In this document: positions 4,701-25,687 of the stretch, piece by piece
Layout of the letters: the number at the start of each line of letters is the position of its first letter
Position numbering within the stretch: position 1 is the stretch's first letter
IMG/VR virus record: IMGVR_UViG_3300009169_000048
Span: 1 to 35,123 of that record
Origin: a virus
DNA: 35,123 bases
Direction: 5' to 3' (one strand)
The notes under the pieces: model-generated
What the model was told of the DNA's origin: nothing
The model's input: the letters and a program-made list of their open reading frames with translations, nothing else
Databases searched by the model: none
Made by a program: the position numbers and the translations under genes

Positions 4701-5038
4701 TGGGAAAGTTATTTATGGATAAATACGAAGAACCGGATGAAGAATCAATCGAAATTCTTCAGAAAGAAGGTCATACGTACCACTGCGCCTGTAGGATAGT
4801 TTGGGGTGATGGAGAGTGTGAATGCGATAAGGCAGACAAAATACCTGGACCTGTTTCGAGCCTTATGTATAACGGGGTTTGTTATATTTGCCTTGCTAAA
4901 GAAGGAAAAATTCATGAGCCGTGGTGCAGGAGCGCCGGTAAGGAGTGCAAATCAATGTATACCCTATGGCAAAAGCTCATGGTAGCAATCAACGTATGTC
5001 TGAAGCTGCGCCGTGAGCGTAAGGACGCGGAGAAGTGA
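4700..5038 (+). CDS. Cys/His-rich small protein, paralogue of the protein at 5504
   Basis: A 112-residue protein starting at ATG 4700, overlapping the previous stop codon; ATG 4715 is an alternative. It carries HTYHCACRIVWGDGECEC near residue 30, which is nearly repeated in the protein at 5504-5695 (HTHHCACRMVWGGGECEC). The Cys and His spacing suggests metal binding, probably zinc. A second Cys-containing half (VCYICLAKEG, WCRSAGKEC) may form another site and is missing in the shorter paralogue. The function is unknown. Its stop overlaps the next gene by four bases (GTGA). Confidence 0.75.
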   Translation: MGKLFMDKYEEPDEESIEILQKEGHTYHCACRIVWGDGECECDKADKIPGPVSSLMYNGVCYICLAKEGKIHEPWCRSAGKECKSMYTLWQKLMVAINVCLKLRRERKDAEK

Positions 5039-5259
5039 CACCTGCTGCAAAGCCACAGCCGGCTCCTGAGCCTGGAAAGCTGGTTGTACTACCGCTGGTG
5101 CTTAACGACCTGAAAGCCCGCGCCGTGAGCGGCTGTATCAAATACGGCACTATGCTCCAATCACATAACGGCCGTGACGCTTTAATGGATGCCTACCAGG
5201 AAGCTCTTGACCTTGCGATGTATCTCCGCCAAGCAATAGCCGAGAGGGACGGCGAGTGA
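5035..5259 (+). CDS. MazG-like small phage protein
   Basis: A 74-residue protein starting at GTG 5035, which overlaps the preceding stop as GTGA. The motif NGRDALMDAYQEALDLAMYLRQ (residues 45-66) resembles the helical metal-binding core of MazG/dUTPase-type NTP pyrophosphohydrolases, with E56 and D59 as candidate metal ligands. Only one helix pair is present, so this may be a minimal or inactive member acting as an oligomer. Such small proteins are common in phage accessory operons. The family link is by eye and moderate. Confidence 0.6.
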   Translation: MTPAAKPQPAPEPGKLVVLPLVLNDLKARAVSGCIKYGTMLQSHNGRDALMDAYQEALDLAMYLRQAIAERDGE

Positions 5260-5507
5260 CCGACCAGCACTATGACGATTACTTTTGTGACCTAATAGGG
5301 GTTACAACGTGCCGTTATAGATTGGTCGGGCAGCAAACCTCTTGCCGGGGCTACGGAGTGACAAGCTACGGTCGCAGGGCGAGCGATAACACTTGCACAT
5401 GGTTCAGGGCGATAGGTGACGGGCAGTGGTTGTGTACTAACCCTGAGGCCACCAGGGACGCTCTGAGGCGCTTTAAAGAGATGGCTTGCATGGAGGTAAA
5501 AGCATGA
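5256..5507 (+). CDS. Cys-rich hypothetical protein
   Basis: An 83-residue protein starting at GTG 5256, which overlaps the upstream stop by four bases. It contains six cysteines (DYFCDL, TTCRYR, TSCRGYG, NTCTWF, WLCTNP, MACMEV) and several aromatic residues, suggesting a disulfide-bonded or metal-binding fold. No family is recognised. It overlaps the next gene by four bases, in line with the tight packing of this cluster. Confidence 0.65.
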   Translation: MTDQHYDDYFCDLIGVTTCRYRLVGQQTSCRGYGVTSYGRRASDNTCTWFRAIGDGQWLCTNPEATRDALRRFKEMACMEVKA

Positions 5508-5695
5508 CAATCGATGCAGAAAGTGAAGAATATATTCAAGTTTTAATTTACCAAGATGAAGGCCACACGCACCATTGCGCTTGTCGGATGGTTTGGGGAG
5601 GTGGTGAATGTGAGTGCAATTTAAATAAGCAAACTCCAGAAATGTTTAAGGCGGTTGAGTGCGAAAATAAGATATACTGGCTGGTTAATAAGTGA
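5504..5695 (+). CDS. Short Cys/His-motif protein, paralogue of the protein at 4700
   Basis: A 63-residue protein; ATG 5504 is chosen because GGAGG lies nine bases upstream. Its core HTHHCACRMVWGGGECEC matches that of the 4700 gene at 15 of 18 positions, so one arose from the other or both from a common source. It lacks the second Cys-rich half of the longer copy. It probably binds a metal; its role is unknown. Confidence 0.7.
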   Translation: MTIDAESEEYIQVLIYQDEGHTHHCACRMVWGGGECECNLNKQTPEMFKAVECENKIYWLVNK

Positions 5696-7854: not shown

Positions 7855-8359
7855 CTTGGGCCTCCTTCTCGAACGGCGCGAGGGCTTCTTTAGCTTGGTC
7901 GTAAACATCCCCACAGTTGCCAAATTTTGAGACATACCGATTTAGCGCCTCCACCAGTCGCGCAACGTCGGATCGCAGATTGGCGTTCTCTTCTTGCATT
8001 TTCCTTATGTATGGTTCTATGTCCTTCCTGATAGACGATCCCCATTTCACACCTATTAATTTGGCAATAGTCTGGATATCCCACTCGCGTTCGACTGCAA
8101 GAGCCGACTCTTTCCAGTCTCGCAGCTTGGCGTTTTCGGCTTCGATTCTATTTATCCTTCCAGTAACACCTTCCTTCATAGCCTTGTAGCACGCTATTTC
8201 ATGCTCAAGCTCCGCGATGTGCTTCTGTTCCTCGTCGGAAACTTCAGCCTCGGCTTGATCTATGAACTCAAACACCATGGACACCAATCCCCAAGTATCG
8301 TATTCACCTTTTGAAACGTCTCTAATTTTTTGTTTAATCTTATCACCCAATAGACTCAT
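7841..8359 (-). CDS. Coiled-coil phage protein (Ea22-like layout)
   Basis: A 172-residue protein. The ATG at 8359 follows AGGAGG, which decides against the longer frame. Residues about 40-75 and 115-150 form coiled coils (EEQKHIAELEHEIACYKA; KMQEENANLRSDVARLVEAL). The overall style, with repeated Glu-Asn-Ala-Leu heptads, resembles Ea22-like accessory proteins of lambdoid phages, but sequence identity cannot be judged here. No enzyme motif is seen. Confidence 0.65.
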   Translation of the reverse strand: MSLLGDKIKQKIRDVSKGEYDTWGLVSMVFEFIDQAEAEVSDEEQKHIAELEHEIACYKAMKEGVTGRINRIEAENAKLRDWKESALAVEREWDIQTIAKLIGVKWGSSIRKDIEPYIRKMQEENANLRSDVARLVEALNRYVSKFGNCGDVYDQAKEALAPFEKEAQGANS

Positions 8360-8363
8360 CGCC

Positions 8364-8627
8364 TCAATCCTCCTTCTTGAACAGCTTAGCGAGAAGCCGC
8401 GCATTTTCTTTCCTGATGGTGGAAAGTTCGGCTTCAAGCTCTTGTGAATGCAGCGATAGCTCATTTACGCTTTCGCGCTCACGCCCAAGCTCATCCTCAA
8501 GCTCCGCGATGCGCTTATCTACGGACTCAGCCTCATAATAAAATCCTTCGTAGTTTTTACCAGGAATAGGTTTAGTTATAATATAAGTAACATTCCCAGC
8601 TCTTTCGAATTTTGCTTTTTTAAGCAT
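8364..8627 (-). CDS. Coiled-coil hypothetical protein
   Basis: An 87-residue protein starting at the ATG at 8627. The ATG at 8639 is possible, but GAAGG sits too close to it, and the layout matches the next gene's AGGAGGATTGAGGCG-ATG. The C-terminal two thirds form a coiled coil (RIAELEDELGRERESV onward). It shares style with the 7841-8359 protein, including KENARLL. The role is unknown. Confidence 0.6.
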   Translation of the reverse strand: MLKKAKFERAGNVTYIITKPIPGKNYEGFYYEAESVDKRIAELEDELGRERESVNELSLHSQELEAELSTIRKENARLLAKLFKKED

Positions 8628-8631
8628 AGCC

Positions 8632-8724
8632 TCAATCATCCTTCTTACCTACCCACCTCATAAATATCCAGTGGATAAAAATAGCTGCCAGTATGCAAGT
8701 ATAGATTATCAGCACGACTTTCAT
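8632..8724 (-). CDS. Tiny membrane protein
   Basis: A 30-residue protein consisting almost wholly of one membrane helix (VVLIIYTCILAAIFIHWIFM) with a short charged tail (RWVGKKDD). A GGAG site lies eight bases before the ATG, and its stop overlaps the downstream gene region. It fits exactly between two neighbours, which supports it despite its size. Confidence 0.5.
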   Translation of the reverse strand: MKVVLIIYTCILAAIFIHWIFMRWVGKKDD

Positions 8725-9000
8725 TTATATGCTCCATATTCCATATTTTTTGTCTATTTTTTCTATTTCTTTTTTGAATAAAACTATTCTGTTTTCAACC
8801 TTACTCATGGGCCACATTTCTTGAATTGAGATTTCTTTGTCTATTTCAAGCCGACGTATTGCAGCGTTATATTCTGCCGTATATTGTTTTATATATTTTA
8901 TTTCTGGATGCTCTTTACAAGCCCTTGAACCGTTTTTTATCGCCATGCTTTTTCTTTTTGATACCTCTTTACCGCATATGAAGCACTTGGCTATTTTCAT
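8725..9000 (-). CDS. Small zinc-finger hypothetical protein
   Basis: A 91-residue lysine-rich protein. It has CFICGK at residues 6-11 and CKEH near residue 28, a CxxC...CxxH arrangement typical of small zinc fingers. The rest is helical. Its ATG overlaps the previous stop (ATGA). The AGAGGGGCA stretch ahead of it serves as the ribosome-binding site. Confidence 0.65.
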   Translation of the reverse strand: MKIAKCFICGKEVSKRKSMAIKNGSRACKEHPEIKYIKQYTAEYNAAIRRLEIDKEISIQEMWPMSKVENRIVLFKKEIEKIDKKYGIWSI

Positions 9001-16558: not shown

Positions 16559-16718
16559 CGCCCGCATAACCGAGCTTATCGCCTGGTTGGAGTCAACCAA
16601 ATTCGCCACTAAGCGGCTGACCGATCTTGCCGGAGACACGGTAGACTGTCTCTTGGAATTGAAGACGCTGCGGGGAAGGAGTTGCAAAAATGCGGATAGC
16701 AAGAGTATTCCCGCGTAA
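16539..16718 (+). CDS. Small helical phage protein
   Basis: A 59-residue protein; ATG 16539 follows GGAGGATGG. It reads MTEKISNARITELIAWLEST and later DTVDCLLELKTLRG. It resembles the 16219 protein in layout. It overlaps the radical SAM gene by 29 bases, so the two are probably translated together. Confidence 0.6.
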   Translation: MTEKISNARITELIAWLESTKFATKRLTDLAGDTVDCLLELKTLRGRSCKNADSKSIPA

Positions 16719-17529
16719 AACAAAAGCAAGCCCGACAGATGATCTTGCATTTTTTGACGTTCCTGGGCTTTTCCCGCCCGAAGTAGACGAAGTACATGTT
16801 TCTGTTGCGTTTACGTGGGATATAGAACGCGCTGAAAGGCTGGCATACCAATGGGAAATAGTTGCGCCTGTTAAAATTGGTGGACCAGCTTTAGGACAAC
16901 CGAGCAGTGAGTTTACACCTGGAATGTATGTTAAAAGAGGATATGTGATTACTTCTCGCGGTTGCCCTAATAGGTGCTGGTTTTGTTCTGTCTGGAAACG
17001 AGAACATGAGCTTATAGAATTACAGATACATGATGGACATAATTTACTTGATGATAATATCCTTGCTTGTTCTAATGAACATATCCGAAAAGTCTTTTCT
17101 ATGCTTGAAAAACAACATGGCGTAGAATTTACCGGTGGGCTGGAGGCTAAAATTCTTAAACATTGGCATGTTGAGTTGTTGCAAAAAATTAAGCCAAAGC
17201 AAATGTTCTTTGCTTACGATACTGAAGATGATTATGAGCCGCTTGCGGACGCTTCAACCATGCTGCGATCCGCAGGATTTACACGTCATCAAATGAGGTG
17301 CTATGTGTTGATCGGCTACCCTCACGATACAATCCAAGCGGCAGAAAAAAGACTATACGCCACAGTAAGGCTTGGGTTTTTCCCTATGGCTATGCTATGG
17401 CGTGATTCCGTGACAGGTGAAGCAAATTATACCTGGAAAGTTTTCCAAAAGTCATGGGCGCGACCGGCGTCTATAGCGGCAATGGTCAAGACGCTGCGGG
17501 GCCGCGAGGAAAAGGAGTTTATCGCATGA
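16690..17529 (+). CDS. Radical SAM enzyme
   Basis: A 279-residue protein with the radical SAM cluster motif SRGCPNRCWFCSVW: C92, C96 and C99 in CX3CX2C form hold a 4Fe-4S cluster that cleaves S-adenosylmethionine. GGLEAK at about 148-153 and CYVLIGYPHDT at about 213-223 fit the later strands of the TIM-type barrel. The short N-terminal part resembles the divergent leading domain of B12-binding radical SAM proteins but is too short to bind B12. A Mom-like gene lies just downstream with one small gene between, so a role in DNA base modification is proposed. GAAGGAG precedes the ATG. Confidence 0.85.
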   Translation: MRIARVFPRKTKASPTDDLAFFDVPGLFPPEVDEVHVSVAFTWDIERAERLAYQWEIVAPVKIGGPALGQPSSEFTPGMYVKRGYVITSRGCPNRCWFCSVWKREHELIELQIHDGHNLLDDNILACSNEHIRKVFSMLEKQHGVEFTGGLEAKILKHWHVELLQKIKPKQMFFAYDTEDDYEPLADASTMLRSAGFTRHQMRCYVLIGYPHDTIQAAEKRLYATVRLGFFPMAMLWRDSVTGEANYTWKVFQKSWARPASIAAMVKTLRGREEKEFIA

Positions 17530-17759
17530 AAGAATGCCTGAGATGCAGATACGCAAGATGGAAAATGACATCGAATGGTAGGATGCACCCTTCTGGGGAT
17601 GGTAGATGCGGATACAGTTATGTTGTCCCGACTCTGCCAGGGGCTTTTTATTGGATAAGCGGTGTTCCATCGCCATGCGGCGGGTTCATCAATAGGCGCG
17701 AAAAATTAAAAGAAGATTGTGTTTATTTCAAGCAACCTATTAGTGACGAAAATCCTTGA
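17526..17759 (+). CDS. Cys-rich small protein between radical SAM and mom-like genes
   Basis: A 77-residue protein starting at ATG 17526, overlapping the radical SAM stop (ATGA). CLRCRYARW opens it; GRCGYS, PSPCGGF and EDCVYF give five cysteines in all. It could be an iron-sulfur or zinc accessory to the radical SAM enzyme, but this rests on position only. Its last codons lie in the left copy of a 17-bp repeat. Confidence 0.6.
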   Translation: MKECLRCRYARWKMTSNGRMHPSGDGRCGYSYVVPTLPGAFYWISGVPSPCGGFINRREKLKEDCVYFKQPISDENP

Positions 17760-17764
17760 CACTT
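17748..17764 (+). repeat. Left direct repeat flanking the mom-like gene
   Basis: GAAAATCCTTGACACTT, identical to 18325-18341. Including flanking bases the match is 19 of 20 (GACGAAAA versus GATGAAAA). It covers the stop codon of the upstream gene. The pair brackets the mom-like gene exactly. Confidence 0.8.
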
Positions 17765-17780
17765 AGCGGAGGATTTAACA

Positions 17781-18326
17781 ATGAACGGTGATAGCATAAG
17801 GGTAGTGCAGCCACTTTTCCCGGTGGAAGGTGAAGGTGAGATACCAACATCGCCGCTCCATTTAAATTTTAATGTTTGCTCTTTAAGTAAGGCCAAAGAA
17901 TTAAACAAACTATGGCACAGTAGGCTTCCTAAATACCGTCAAACAATATCAAAAATATGTTACTATGCAGAATATAAAAATCGTTTTTTTGCTGTCGCCA
18001 TATGGTCAAATCCAAGTTCAGCTATGGTTGACCAATCATGGTTAGAGTTAAAAAGAATGGCGATTAGTGATGATAGCCCAAAATATACAGCGTCAAGGAT
18101 GCTTTCTTGGATGGTTAAGGACATTAAAAAAAAATACAAGGACGTAAAAAAACTAATATCATATCAAGATCCTAAAGTGCATAGCGGAACAATATATAAA
18201 GCTTCTGGATGGGTTTCAACTGGTGAACGAAAAAGCGGTGGGTTTTCAAATACAAAAGTAAGATTTCGTGAAAAAGACCAAGCGCCAGGGCCTAAAATAA
18301 GATGGGAAAAAAATATAAAACGATGA
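17781..18326 (+). CDS. mom: Mom-like GNAT-fold DNA-modification protein
   Basis: A 181-residue protein resembling the Mom family of phage Mu and relatives. The core reads FAVAIWSNPSSAMVDQSWLE (68-87), LKRMAISDDSPKYTASRML (88-106), then ISYQDPKVHSGTIYKASGW (125-143). This corresponds to GNAT strands with the typical RMAI, S+ML and YQD...H.GTIYKA(S/T)GW signature. Mu Mom converts adenine to an N6-carbamoylmethyl form that blocks many restriction enzymes. The gene is AT-rich and bounded by direct repeats. GGAGG lies ten bases before the ATG. Assignment is by eye but the motif set is strong. Confidence 0.8.
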   Translation: MNGDSIRVVQPLFPVEGEGEIPTSPLHLNFNVCSLSKAKELNKLWHSRLPKYRQTISKICYYAEYKNRFFAVAIWSNPSSAMVDQSWLELKRMAISDDSPKYTASRMLSWMVKDIKKKYKDVKKLISYQDPKVHSGTIYKASGWVSTGERKSGGFSNTKVRFREKDQAPGPKIRWEKNIKR

Positions 18327-18341
18327 AAATCCTTGACACTT
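18325..18341 (+). repeat. Right direct repeat flanking the mom-like gene
   Basis: Second perfect copy of GAAAATCCTTGACACTT. It overlaps the mom-like stop codon and supplies the TTGACA of the promoter that follows. Confidence 0.8.
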
Positions 18342-18500: not shown

Positions 18501-20231
18501 ATGCCGAAAACAATGCTTGAATATGCACTACGATACCGAAAGCGTGGGTTCTCGGTTATCCCATGCAAACGGGATAAGACCCCACACATAAAATGGGCAC
18601 CATACCAAGTTCAGAAGCCTACAGAGGATGAAATACGGCAATGGTGGGGCAAATGGCCTGATGCTAATATCGGAATCCCTTGCGGTCCTGTGTCCGGTAT
18701 AGACGTGCTTGACGTTGACACCGAAGAAGCCTACGAGCAGCTTTCCGAAAATTATTTGCCAGATTCTTTAGAGACTCCTACCGTAAAAACTCCCAAGGGA
18801 CGTCACTTGTATTTCCAGCATCGGCCTGGACTATCGAATGAGGTTAGGGTGGTTCCTGGGACCGACCTTCGTACTCATGGCGGGTATGTTATAGCGCCTC
18901 CAAGCAGCAACGGTGATGGCACAACGTATTACTGGCTTAGCGGCCTTAATCCAAAAATCATCGAATTTGCGGCATGGCCTGAAGAACTCTTTGCAGTTCT
19001 TTTGCAAGGTAGTAGTAACAATACCTTAAGTAATAATAATAGGGGGGGTTATAGGGGGGGATATGTAGAGGCTGGCGAAAGGGCTTGTCTACAAGTGTCT
19101 ACACTGTCTACAAGTGTCTACAAGATGTTTCAACAGGGGACACGCGATAATGACCTTTTCCATGTTGCCAACTGTTTACTTAAAGGCGGTTGTAAAAAGG
19201 ATGAAGTATCACAAGTTTTAGGAATACTTGCTAAAAATTGCAACCCTCCGTTTGATGAAAAAGAATGCGAATTAAAAATCCAGTCTGCTTTATCAAGAAA
19301 AACCTCCAGAATTAGAAATTTATCAGATGAAGTAAGAGACTTTGTTCTGTCTACAAACGGCAACTTTTTGTCTACAGATGTCTACAAGTGTCTACAACTG
19401 TCTACAAGGGACGAGCACAAGAACCTTTCTGTAATTTTAGCGCGTATCGCAAAAGACGGTATTATTGAAAAAGCCGGTAGTCGAAACGGTGAATGGCGGT
19501 TGATAGACCAGGACTGCAAGCCTATGGACTGGATGAATGCCACATGCGAATATAAAGACTTGTGGCTTCCGCTCGGGTTGGGTGAGGTTTGCGGGGTTCA
19601 GCCTGGTAATATTTTGCTTTTTGCCGGTGCCAAGGACAGCGGAAAGACTGCCTTTCTTATGAATATCGCGAAGGAGAACCGTCACAAGTACAAGATTCAT
19701 TATTTCAATTCGGAAATGGGTGCGGCCGAGTTCAAGATGAGGGCTTCGAAGTTTAAGGATATTCCGATCAGCCAATGGGGAGGTGTTTCGGTATATGAGA
19801 GGTCTGACAACTTTGCCGATGTCATTAAATCAGGAGAAGGAAATTTAAATATAATCGACTTTTTAGAAGTAGTTGACGAGTTCTGGAAAGTGGCGGCGAC
19901 TATTCAGAAGATCCACAAAAAGCTTGACGGTGCGCTTTGTGTGATTGCGCTTCAAAAAAATACCGGAGTTGATCTTGGCCGTGGTGGAGCTTTCAGCTTA
20001 GAGAAGGCGCGGCTTTACGTGGCTCTTGATTATGGAGCTGCTAAGATAGTTTCATGCAAAAACTTCAAAGAAAACACAATCATAGAAGGCAATCCGAGAG
20101 GATATACATGCCGGTACAAGCTTGTTAATGGGTGCGATATTCGACGTGATCAATACGGGTGGACAAGCCCGGTAGAAAAGAAAGATAAGAAAAATGAAAC
20201 TCAAATGCTCCAAGTGCTTGAAAGAAGTTGA
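18501..20231 (+). CDS. Primase-helicase (prim-pol N-terminus, RecA-like C-terminus)
   Basis: A 576-residue replication protein. Residues 1-170 form an archaeo-eukaryotic-type prim-pol domain: VIPCKRDKTPHIKW, GIPCGPVSGIDVLDVD with metal-binding D71 and D73, KGRHLYF with H102, and GGYVIAPPS. A PriCT-type helical segment follows (FHVANCLLKGG, 220-265), then a winged-helix-like part (275-335). The C-terminus is a RecA-type ATPase with Walker A GAKDSGKT (376-383) and IIDFLEV as a likely Walker B. It should prime and unwind phage DNA. Residues 170-215 and 283-303 are low-complexity because the DNA holds iterons there. Confidence 0.88.
   Translation: MPKTMLEYALRYRKRGFSVIPCKRDKTPHIKWAPYQVQKPTEDEIRQWWGKWPDANIGIPCGPVSGIDVLDVDTEEAYEQLSENYLPDSLETPTVKTPKGRHLYFQHRPGLSNEVRVVPGTDLRTHGGYVIAPPSSNGDGTTYYWLSGLNPKIIEFAAWPEELFAVLLQGSSNNTLSNNNRGGYRGGYVEAGERACLQVSTLSTSVYKMFQQGTRDNDLFHVANCLLKGGCKKDEVSQVLGILAKNCNPPFDEKECELKIQSALSRKTSRIRNLSDEVRDFVLSTNGNFLSTDVYKCLQLSTRDEHKNLSVILARIAKDGIIEKAGSRNGEWRLIDQDCKPMDWMNATCEYKDLWLPLGLGEVCGVQPGNILLFAGAKDSGKTAFLMNIAKENRHKYKIHYFNSEMGAAEFKMRASKFKDIPISQWGGVSVYERSDNFADVIKSGEGNLNIIDFLEVVDEFWKVAATIQKIHKKLDGALCVIALQKNTGVDLGRGGAFSLEKARLYVALDYGAAKIVSCKNFKENTIIEGNPRGYTCRYKLVNGCDIRRDQYGWTSPVEKKDKKNETQMLQVLERS
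19016..19060 (+). other. AT-rich tract and twin G7 runs beside the iterons
   Basis: An AT-rich stretch (AACAATACCTTAAGTAATAA) is followed by two runs of seven G (19042-19048 and 19054-19060) separated by TTATA. They encode RGGYRGGY. The AT-rich part could be the unwinding element of the proposed origin. G7 runs also invite slippage. Confidence 0.45.
19086..19122 (+). repeat. Iteron cluster 1 (4 x TGTCTACA)
   Basis: Four exact copies of TGTCTACA start at 19086, 19096, 19105 and 19115, i.e. every 9-10 bases, one turn of the helix. They lie inside the primase-helicase gene, as the lambda origin lies inside O. A replication initiator probably binds them; this is inferred. Confidence 0.8.
19348..19406 (+). 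repeat. Iteron cluster 2 (5 x TGTCTACA)
   Basis: Five exact copies of TGTCTACA start at 19348, 19369, 19379, 19389 and 19399. The last four are spaced exactly ten bases apart. Together with cluster 1 there are nine copies within 321 bases, the strongest origin signal in the window. Confidence 0.8.
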
Positions 20232-21132: not shown

Positions 21133-21423
21133 ATGGAGCTTGAAAACGCGATCAGAGAAGCATGTGCCAAACTGGCAGAGTCGCTAATTTCCCAGCAAAC
21201 ATTTATTGCCGAGGGGCTTGCGAACAAGGGGACGAAGTTCTCGTTTAGCTGCAAGTGCACAGTTTCATCGCTTCCGCCTGGAAAACCTAAAAAAGCTACT
21301 GTTGCAGGGTATCAGTCGCCGGTGAATGGGCGTGGTCCGTATGTGTGGTTTGAGGGGTCGGTTTCGCCAATCAGGTCAGAGTTCAGCAGTTTGGACACTC
21401 AAGGCAGGCTTGAAGGTATGTGA
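21133..21423 (+). CDS. Hypothetical protein with LDTQGRLEGM tail
   Basis: A 96-residue protein starting at ATG 21133 after GAGGGCC. An N-terminal helix (LENAIREACAKLAESLI) precedes a strand-rich part (FSFSCKCTVSSLPPG, YVWFEGSVSPIR). It ends with LDTQGRLEGM, the same ten residues that end the YhhQ-like protein at 22504. The tail is specified by a repeated DNA segment at the gene boundary rather than by protein homology. Confidence 0.65.
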   Translation: MELENAIREACAKLAESLISQQTFIAEGLANKGTKFSFSCKCTVSSLPPGKPKKATVAGYQSPVNGRGPYVWFEGSVSPIRSEFSSLDTQGRLEGM

Positions 21424-21424
21424 T
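21391..21424 (+). repeat. Gene-boundary repeat, copy 1
   Basis: A 34-base segment starting TTGGACACTCAAGG and ending ATGTGAT matches 22472-22505 at 28 positions. It carries the final ten codons of the upstream gene, its stop, and the ribosome site of the next gene. Confidence 0.7.
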
Positions 21425-21425
21425 T

Positions 21426-22025
21426 ATGATATTAATGCCGTCAAATAATACTGGCCGGGTAGTGCGTGAGTTGTTCGAGAAGTACCCTGAAAAGATAGGG
21501 CTGTTGATGTCGCCTGACGGTTTCAGAAAATCACCAGGAAAGTATGCGTTAGACAATGGAGCGTTTAAACAGTTCAAAGAATTAAGTTTTTTTAAGATGT
21601 TGGATTCAGTAGACCCGCAAAATCCCCCTATGTTTGTTGTAGCTCCCGATGTCGTAGGATGTCATGATCGGACCCTTGCACTTTGGTATTACTATTACCC
21701 AAGATTAAAAGCATATGGGTATCCGCTTGCTTTCGTGGCGCAGGATGGGTGCTCCCCAGACGCTGTACCTGAAGAAGCTGATTGGATATTTATAGGCGGC
21801 ACTAACGGTTGGAAATCAGCAAACATTGAGCCGTTTATAGGTTCGTGTCTCGGTTTGCGCCCTGTGCATGTGGGCCGTGTAAATTCACTGGGGTTTTTAA
21901 AATATTGCGAATCGGTAGGTGTTGCGTCAATCGACGGAACCGGATGGATGAGGGCAAGAGGAAAACAGTACCATGATTTTATTAATTATTTCAACGGGGA
22001 GAAACAACTATCATGGCTGGAATAG
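21426..22025 (+). CDS. dpdA: DpdA-like DNA 7-deazaguanine transglycosylase (tRNA-guanine transglycosylase fold)
   Basis: A 199-residue protein; ATG 21426 has AAGGT eight bases upstream (GTG 21420 and ATG 21435 are alternatives). It shows the order of the TGT superfamily: ALDNGAFKQF (D43, equivalent to the DSGGF Asp), VVAPDVVG (D75), FVAQDG, IFIGGTNGWK (GG 124-125), VHVGRVNS, and ASIDGTGWMRARG (D170), which recalls the FDCVxPTRxAR active site of TGT. Phage DpdA enzymes swap guanine in DNA for 7-deazaguanine bases. It is shorter than bacterial TGT (about 370 residues), like some phage subfamilies. The precursor transporter gene overlaps its end by 13 bases. Confidence 0.75.
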   Translation: MILMPSNNTGRVVRELFEKYPEKIGLLMSPDGFRKSPGKYALDNGAFKQFKELSFFKMLDSVDPQNPPMFVVAPDVVGCHDRTLALWYYYYPRLKAYGYPLAFVAQDGCSPDAVPEEADWIFIGGTNGWKSANIEPFIGSCLGLRPVHVGRVNSLGFLKYCESVGVASIDGTGWMRARGKQYHDFINYFNGEKQLSWLE

Positions 22026-22504
22026 CGTATCTTTTAAGCATTATATCCGCAAATATTATTGTCAGCATTTTTGGGTTGGTTACTGTTTTAGGGATTACAT
22101 TTCCTGCTGGTGCCCCATTAATCGGGATGACTTTCACATTCAGGGATATGGTGCAGCGCCGCTATGGTCCTGCCCGGTGCTGGTGGTGGATGCTGGCAGC
22201 GATGGTTACAACGGTTTTATTTAATCCGAAACTTGCGCTTGCCTCTGGTGCCGCTTTCATTGTTGCTGAGGGGGTTGATTGGGCAATTTATACCTACACA
22301 AAAGTTACATTCTCTAAAAGGGTTATGCTGTCGAATTTGGTTGGTTTGCCGCTTGATTCTTTTGTTTTTGTGGTAGTTGCTTTTGGGTTTAACTGGCCTG
22401 CGATTATAGGCCAAACACTTGTAAAATTTATGTTTTGTATGGTTCCTATCGCGGTCAATTTAGCATATAAATTGGACACTCAAGGGCGGTTGGAGGGCAT
22501 GTGA
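22013..22504 (+). CDS. yhhQ: YhhQ/VUT-family queuosine-precursor transporter
   Basis: A 163-residue membrane protein with about five or six hydrophobic helices. Family signatures are FPAGAPLIGMTFTFRDMVQRRYG (residues about 28-50, with the RD-x5-RxG loop), LALASGAAFIVAEGVDWAIY (about 73-92), and a late DSF motif. YhhQ proteins import preQ0/preQ1-type 7-deazaguanine precursors across the inner membrane. Coupled to the DpdA-like gene, it would feed the phage's DNA modification by salvage; no queCDEF biosynthesis gene is in the window. The last ten residues come from the boundary repeat. Confidence 0.85.
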   Translation: MAGIAYLLSIISANIIVSIFGLVTVLGITFPAGAPLIGMTFTFRDMVQRRYGPARCWWWMLAAMVTTVLFNPKLALASGAAFIVAEGVDWAIYTYTKVTFSKRVMLSNLVGLPLDSFVFVVVAFGFNWPAIIGQTLVKFMFCMVPIAVNLAYKLDTQGRLEGM

Positions 22505-22505
22505 T
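22472..22505 (+). repeat. Gene-boundary repeat, copy 2
   Basis: Second copy of the 34-base element (28 of 34 identical to copy 1). It encodes LDTQGRLEGM plus stop and supplies TTGGAGGGC as the ribosome site of the 22504 gene. Confidence 0.7.
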
Positions 22506-24826: not shown

Positions 24827-25687
24827 CTATGCGGCCTGAGATTCAGCCGCCGGTTGATAGTTCGAGGCAGTTTCGAGAATCAGATTGACAGCCCCACATA
24901 TTCGGTTGATAAATTTGAAACACAATCCGACCGCTTTTCCCGCGTCGGTGCCGGCATACGATTTGATATAATCCCATGCGCCACCGAGGTCCGCTTCGAC
25001 CGGCTCTCCGATAATTTGCAGGAGAACCGCCCCGCCCAGCTCGGCAACAATCTCATTATCCTGTTTTTGCCCCGGCCCCTTTGTCAGTGCTCCGAGTTTA
25101 TCATCGGCCGCGTGTACCAATTCATGCGCCCAGGTTGACAGGTTTTTGACTCCGATTGCTATGGTAGAACCGGCCTGATAGTATCCCAAATAACCTTTAT
25201 CCCGGCCGCTATAGCTTGTCACATTCAGGCCCCATGATTCAGCCACTTCCCGCAGCGGGAGCGCCTTTAGACGGGATTCTTCGGCCAGATCGACGCCGCC
25301 GGCAGTTTCCCATTTCGCCGGATCGGAAATTTCGGTTGATTCTATCGCAAAAACCGGAATTGACTTGAACCCGTACAAAACAGCGTGCGTCTTTTCTTCG
25401 CCTGATTCGTCTTTTTCAGTTTTTTTGCCGAGGCAGGGACCAAGAATGTGAAATGCTTTTGACCCTTTTTTGACTCGCCGGCCTGCCGCTTCCCACTGCC
25501 TAAAACCACGGGCATCAGCGGTCCCATTGATGGCGCAGACAAACCTATTCATAAAAGACCAGGACCCCGAAGGGACATTGTCTGACCGATTGATAAAAAT
25601 TGGAGCGATGGCAGCGGGCAAGTCACCTTTTTCGAATCGCTCGACTATTGCCTTACAAACTGATTCGCTTTGGCCGTAGTATTTCAC
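24827..25687 (-). CDS. ardC: ArdC-like antirestriction protein (ssDNA-binding domain plus metallopeptidase)
   Basis: A 286-residue protein. The N-terminal domain (about 1-120) matches ArdC: SGSWSFMNRFVCAINGTADARGF, then WEAAGRRVKKGSKAFHILGP and GFKSIPVF. The C-terminal part is an ImmA/SprT-like metallopeptidase: LSTWAHELVHAADDKLG with H188, E189 and H192, and NEIVAELGGAVLL with E216 as third ligand. Plasmid ArdC binds single-stranded DNA and protects incoming DNA from restriction. A phage copy probably does the same at injection or early replication. The start at 25687 has AGGAGG close upstream. Confidence 0.9.
   Translation of the reverse strand: MKYYGQSESVCKAIVERFEKGDLPAAIAPIFINRSDNVPSGSWSFMNRFVCAINGTADARGFRQWEAAGRRVKKGSKAFHILGPCLGKKTEKDESGEEKTHAVLYGFKSIPVFAIESTEISDPAKWETAGGVDLAEESRLKALPLREVAESWGLNVTSYSGRDKGYLGYYQAGSTIAIGVKNLSTWAHELVHAADDKLGALTKGPGQKQDNEIVAELGGAVLLQIIGEPVEADLGGAWDYIKSYAGTDAGKAVGLCFKFINRICGAVNLILETASNYQPAAESQAA

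Follow-up and report, generated by a model that had tools for sequence, protein, structure and literature searches.

A compact TGT-fold gene paired with a YhhQ-like transporter gene in a viral contig: a putative salvage-fed module for DNA modification

Introduction

Phage DpdA enzymes of the 9g/CAjan type (PHROG 887/7068) possess the TGT fold, and their genes are found in the neighbourhood of genes for QueC, QueD, QueE and YhhQ; a group 3 comprises phages with DpdA only, and the supply of the precursor by the host or the environment has been discussed (Hutinet 2019, PMC6884629). Phage CAjan makes dPreQ0, and the DNA of the DpdA-only phage Orion was found to carry no 7-deazaguanine modification (PMC6884629). 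Salmonella phage 7-11 and Pantoea phage MED16 code for DpdA without genes for preQ0 synthesis, and their DNA carries dADG (PMC6884629, PMC8306585). The paper on MED16, which makes no mention of YhhQ, places the DpdA of this phage among proteobacterial TGT homologues (PMC8306585). For Enterobacter phage EC151 and Seuratvirus, it has been suggested that YhhQ increases preQ0 for the modification of DNA (PMC8310023), whereby it accompanies a full folE-queD-queE-queC-dpdA cluster instead of replacing this cluster. In a survey from 2019, phage YhhQ showed no correlation to any phage group (PMC6884629). As for the transported compound, the queuosine precursor transporter (QPTR) of E. coli, YhhQ, carries preQ0/preQ1, and that of Chlamydia carries queuine (summarised in PMC11130926).

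DpdA phages fed by the host or the environment and phage YhhQ as an importer of preQ0 have thus already been published. Further relatives of DpdA are DpdA2 of Vibrio phage nt-1 (YP_008125322), a protein of 464 aa which adjoins preQ0 genes and was found to be TGT-like by its authors' HHpred analysis, and the subfamilies DpdA3 and DpdA4, reportedly distinguished by Cui et al. in 2023. New in the present analysis is the gene context: the window, i.e. the whole linear IMG/VR record of 35,123 bases, appears to represent an independent importer-type case within a compact DpdA-like family with interchangeable precursor supply.

Results and Discussion

Gene layout of the window

The features of the window are summarized in Table 1. 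The open reading frame of the TGT-like protein was listed as 21420..22025 (+) with a GTG start at 21420, while the internal ATG at 21426 leads to a protein of 199 residues. The original prediction had described this protein by the motifs LDNGAF, APDVVG, IGGTNG and SIDGTGWMRAR and had seen it overlapped by a YhhQ/VUT-type gene. All motifs are present, the reading frame lies where it was placed, and the two genes share 13 nt. It was also confirmed that no queCDEF gene is visible: QueC, QueD, QueE and QueF could not be detected in the 35-kb contig, and the same applies to FolE and to a DpdA of full length. Since the linear record may be incomplete, these absences are provisional and preQ0 genes could lie beyond the contig. 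A megablast search of the window against phages gave no match.

Both genes are flanked by the copies of a 34-nt direct repeat, which share 82% identity at a spacing of 1081 (family D3 of the repeat search) and whose core pattern gave two matches in 0/100 shuffles. The first copy codes for ...LDTQGRLEGM, the end of the reading frame upstream of the TGT gene. This arrangement fits the insertion of a cassette, but is also compatible with a duplicated translation-start region.

Table 1. Position of the two-gene module, its flanking repeats and the anti-restriction genes in the window
Feature	Position	Strand	Remarks
Compact TGT/DpdA-like transglycosylase gene	21426..22025	+	199 aa; stop codon 22023-22025
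YhhQ/VUT (QPTR, COG1738-type) putative precursor transporter gene	22013..22504	+	163 aa
34-nt direct repeat, copy 1	21391..21424	+	ends immediately 5' of TGT start codon
34-nt direct repeat, copy 2	22472..22505	+	3' end of YhhQ gene
Mom-like DNA (adenine) modification protein	17781..18326	+	PF25680 Mom 56.2 bits (cut-off 27.1); phrog_1384 E=2.8e-21
ArdC-like anti-restriction protein	24827..25687	-	PF08401 ArdcN 25.2 bits (cut-off 22.6); phrog_7245 anti-restriction protein

Fold and conserved residues of the compact enzyme

Searches of the 199-residue protein against Pfam, NCBIfam and PADLOC gave no match, and the protein was assigned to PHROG 15826 ('unknown function'; phrog_15826, E=4.5e-30). 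Phage relatives with 34-43% identity are annotated as 'DpdA-like tRNA-guanine transglycosylase', and the phages bearing this label include several Mycobacterium and Arthrobacter phages. A relative in Erythrobacter phage ZS04 (L008, 3884-4525) is labelled 'DarB-like antirestriction protein', which is probably a misannotation. Single-sequence searches of viral contigs with either window protein returned no relatives, so that alignments were required.

The AlphaFold2 model of the compact enzyme, calculated with 30 natural sequences as input, reached a pLDDT of 91.7 and a pTM of 0.88. All of the 50 Foldseek matches listed from the PDB were TGTs (E of about 1e-4, probability of 1.00, TMq of 0.49-0.65), and the structure matches in BFVD include phage 'queuine tRNA-ribosyltransferases'. 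The VIA comparison with TGT gave a Z of 13.5 for 185 aligned residues; since an unrelated TIM barrel, ribulose-phosphate epimerase, reached a Z of 13.1, VIA alone is insufficient as proof of a TGT. In the PDB, a sequence search with the profile of the compact TGTs gave no TGT, and structure comparison alone led to this family. Altogether, the model points to a TIM barrel of the TGT type, in line with the predicted fold.

Across 188 aligned relatives, the residues D43 (187/188), D75 (188/188), Q106 (187/188), G125 (187/187), H148 (186/186) and D170 (186/187) are invariant or nearly so, and the same holds true for the pair G124-G125. In their order and context, the motifs follow those of TGT and DpdA: LDNGAF corresponds to LDSGAF and PDVVG to LDGIGD of DpdA, VAQDG to IIQGS of E. 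coli TGT, and IGG to IGG, followed by HVGRVN and by the nucleophile motif SIDGTGW, which resembles SVDSTTW and (C/T)DSSSW of DpdA. Summarized over both families, the aligned motifs are LDxGAF, (P/L)D(V/G)(V/I)G, IGG and (S/T)D-x-(S/T)-x-W. By its motif, H148 resembles the His in HxFG(I/M)T of DpdA; the conserved His of phage DpdA was numbered 196 by Hutinet 2019 (PMC6884629). Based on this residue-to-residue mapping, which combines motifs with partial profile alignments, the compact enzyme appears to comprise the catalytic Asp pair as well as the base-binding Gln and Gly-Gly.

Relation to DpdA and tRNA-guanine transglycosylases

The alignment of the compact family with long DpdA by hhalign (E=1.9e-6, 108 columns) brought LDNGAF to LDSGAF, PDVVG to LDGIGD and IGG to IGG, while the corresponding alignment with only bacterial TGT was not strong enough to stand by itself. 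In hmmsearch, the compact family detected long DpdA with E-values of 1.7e-6 to 3.6e-4, compared to 0.16 for E. coli TGT and 0.49 for DpdA2. Judged by these profiles, the affinity of the compact enzyme is to long DpdA rather than to E. coli TGT. The expected relation to TGT/DpdA could therefore be upheld at the level of family alignments with long DpdA, but not for the standard profiles, since PF01702 matched neither the window protein nor any of 30 relatives and the DpdA profiles PHROG 887 and 7068 gave no match for the window protein. The relatives match phrog_15826 in the profile search, and one of them additionally matches phrog_887 (1.3e-8). Neither the zinc site CxCxxC..H nor the C-terminal subdomain of tRNA-TGT is present in the 199 residues or in the alignment of the relatives.

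Compared to long DpdA with about 300 aa, the compact proteins comprise only about 200 aa and belong to PHROG 15826 instead of PHROG 887. A His-containing segment of long DpdA takes the place of their Gln (VAQDG), and the contig of the window showed no preQ0 genes. A membership in PF01702 was rejected because of the missing profile match. The same holds true for DpdA2, to which no similarity was detectable (0.1% probability by hhalign in addition to the E-value given above). By sequence, the compact family is thus distinct from classical DpdA, DpdA2 and tRNA-TGT, and it may overlap with DpdA3/DpdA4.

The original prediction assumed a small phage-specific subfamily. This does not hold, because the viral relatives number in the hundreds and further relatives are encoded by about 88 stretches of contigs from bacterial genomes.

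The putative transporter

The YhhQ-like protein matches PF02592 (Vut_1) with 39.8 bits, above the cut-off of 27.2, and phrog_4899 with E=3.7e-32. For TIGR00697 (queuosine precursor transporter), however, 40.8 bits stayed under the equivalog cut-off of 50.95, so that the assignment to the VUT family stood and that to the narrower equivalog did not. A profile of phage-type YhhQs matches YhhQ of E. coli (E=2.9e-9), which is a member of the same family (COG1738, PF02592) but longer, with 221 aa compared to 163 aa in the window. The model of the window protein (pLDDT 94) comprises six helices, as in E. coli YhhQ, and forms a complete membrane domain with weak resemblance to the vitamin-binding S components of ECF transporters. 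Since the substrates of the E. coli and Chlamydia QPTRs differ, a substrate of the window transporter can be proposed only by analogy.

Gene linkage across relatives

Neighbouring genes were typed by HMMs for the best 80 viral relatives (L010-L089) and for 80 loci from bacterial genomes (L090-L169). On the same strand as the compact TGT gene, QueD, QueC (together with QueD or QueE) or YhhQ were found. Two more viral scans used TGT alignments alone, so YhhQ played no part in the choice of loci. With related contigs included and a number of contigs occurring in more than one scan, the ReqiPine5-like alignment led to 60/80 loci with YhhQ at a distance of <=1.5 kb (53 of these <=20 bp), while the QueD-linked alignment led to 48/80 loci with QueD, 15 of them also with QueC, and to 0/80 with YhhQ. 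Starting from the other side, 62 of 80 viral YhhQ loci that were fetched independently showed a gene of the TGT/DpdA family at <=5 kb. Among the compact TGTs, one clade shows a tight linkage to YhhQ, and these observations support a functional connection of both gene families. Together with the residue conservation, the gene linkage rules out a chance match or an artefact of the reading frame.

The idea that YhhQ accompanies the compact TGT where the bacterial genome has no QueC gave a negative result, since QueC was present in 5/11 paired and 18/38 unpaired bacterial genomes and no difference was seen. In Paraburkholderia/Caballeronia, a third class of TGT neighbours was observed at L150 (7775-9580) and its relatives, comprising an SMC-like ATPase and a protein of the PP-loop type (PAPS-reductase-like); this pairing adjoins 22-24 TGT genes in bacterial chromosomes and possibly belongs to a different island. 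A PAPS-reductase-like gene follows the YhhQ-compact TGT pair in phage ReqiPine5 (L001, 5658-6575).

Origin of the pair in the window

A tree of 101 non-redundant compact TGT sequences showed two major clades. Clade A (33 rows, SH-aLRT of 94) comprises 19 sequences with Que partners, 13 without partner and a single one with YhhQ, which is that of the window, whereas clade B (59 rows, support of 95) comprises 34 with YhhQ, 24 without partner and one with Que. Two changes between YhhQ and Que are sufficient to explain this distribution. The window TGT is therefore located in the QueD/QueC-linked clade A, yet has a YhhQ partner. In the whole records of its 42 nearest viral relatives, Vut_1 was found in 0/42, and in about 40% of the clade-A loci from the QueD-linked scan neither a Que nor a YhhQ partner is nearby. 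The loci of the ReqiPine5-like scan belong to clade B.

In a tree of the YhhQs, the transporter-like protein of the window pairs with that of locus L171 (support of 97; 53% identity over the BLAST match), whose YhhQ gene overlaps a long DpdA gene. The surrounding branch holds other DpdA-linked YhhQs, and the Seuratvirus YhhQ falls into the same broad branch. Since a clade-A TGT is combined with a YhhQ that groups with those linked to long DpdA, the window pair was probably assembled independently of the clade-B pairs, with precursor synthesis being swapped for salvage. The simplest reading is that the YhhQ gene of the window occupies the downstream slot held by QueD in many clade-A loci.

Proposed function and alternative explanations

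The genes with their folds, the conserved likely catalytic positions and the linkage to QueD/QueC or YhhQ are shown here, and we consider it likely that the two genes form a salvage-fed module for DNA modification. In analogy to E. coli YhhQ, the YhhQ-like protein would import a 7-deazaguanine base (preQ0 or preQ1) through the host membrane, and the compact enzyme would exchange guanines of the phage DNA for the imported base. Assuming a TGT mechanism, D170 would attack the sugar, and D43, D75, Q106 and G124-G125 would hold the base. The exchange would shield the phage genome from restriction, and such an anti-restriction role fits the contig, which also codes for Mom-like and ArdC-like proteins. 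It is inferred that DNA is the substrate, which base is used, that the transporter is active and that the genome is protected. MED16 and 7-11 provide a precedent for this module, as they carry dADG in spite of their missing preQ0 genes. The unmodified DNA of Orion, the TIGR00697 score under the cut-off, the equal QueC content of paired and unpaired bacterial genomes, the relatives without a partner and the phages with both enzymes speak against it.

The same genes could also be explained by a mini-TGT acting on tRNA, with YhhQ feeding queuosine salvage and thereby tuning translation during infection. The TGT fold, the Gln in VAQDG, which is kept as in TGTs, and the role of YhhQ for tRNA queuosine in bacteria are consistent with this explanation. 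Furthermore, some YhhQ-paired actinobacterial genomes comprise neither a PF01702 TGT nor QueC, and since they have no PF01702 TGT, the compact enzyme could be the sole TGT there. Nonetheless, an action on tRNA is unlikely, given the missing PF01702 match, CxCxxC zinc motif and C-terminal tRNA-TGT subdomain, the higher similarity to DpdA than to E. coli TGT in hmmsearch, and the anti-restriction genes as neighbours. That the module is inactive or rarely used, caused by a missing precursor from host or environment or by divergence of the enzyme, seems quite unlikely in view of the intact genes in the window, the near-invariant catalytic positions in 188 sequences and a pairing that recurs in many viral records and appears to have been assembled more than once. 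The unmodified DNA of Orion (PMC6884629) would be in agreement with such an inactive state, as would the compact TGT of phage phiG7, which is split into two ORFs (L005, 5950-6542), and, in a contig of Micromonospora (L157, 5157-6325), a pair of YhhQ and compact TGT whose decay by frameshift indicates that the pair can be lost.

The phages R29Z, Sonali and phiG7 code for the compact protein together with long DpdA and preQ0 genes. This could suggest that the compact family represents an additional transglycosylase, with a DNA sequence preference or a base of its own, which complements long DpdA and, in the case of the window, acts alone or with a DpdA beyond the contig. However, the neighbourhoods fetched for the best 80 viral relatives showed no long DpdA, which renders such a complementing role very unlikely; as the compact protein often adjoins QueD/QueC in these neighbourhoods, it seems to be the only enzyme there that inserts the base. 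On the other hand, the main modifier is not in every case the compact enzyme, since three phages have both enzymes and CAjan makes dPreQ0, even though the examined 50 kb of CAjan showed no compact gene. In Sonali (L003), the compact TGT (4938-5555) and long DpdA (7925-8815) are encoded together with QueC/QueD/QueE, suggesting a coexistence of two transglycosylases. PhiG7 is a Seuratvirus with full-length DpdA and preQ0 genes, and CAjan has no compact gene at the corresponding position.

Coming back to the salvage-fed module, we lean slightly towards the more general view that the compact, zinc-free transglycosylases of about 200 aa form a large, undescribed DpdA-like subfamily with a modular precursor supply, in which QueD/QueC or YhhQ split the tree and the window made the swap independently. 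If this is true, YhhQ would be a marker of 'scavenger' phages that rely on an environmental nutrient for the disguise of their DNA, and the resistance of a phage to restriction could hang on a free base in the environment. PHROG 15826 gains a testable function from the gene context and the fold, and the compact TGTs would, if this reading is right, also be tools of small size by which 7-deazaguanines could be placed in DNA.

Further features of the contig

The presence of a Mom-like gene and a compact TGT in one contig possibly points to two different hypermodified bases per phage. Among 42 other records with compact TGT or YhhQ that were checked, Mom was found in 0/42. The Mom-like gene is flanked by a 20-nt direct repeat (95%) at 17745-17764 and 18322-18341 with TTGACA, which parallels the separate repeat flanking the TGT-YhhQ pair. 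Just upstream, a radical-SAM-like protein with the motif CPNRCWFC is encoded at 16690-17529 (+; phrog_9298). Within the Prim-Pol/helicase gene, tandem decamer repeats TGTCTACAAN were observed at 19086-19123 and 19369-19407, which are iteron-like and could represent a replication origin.
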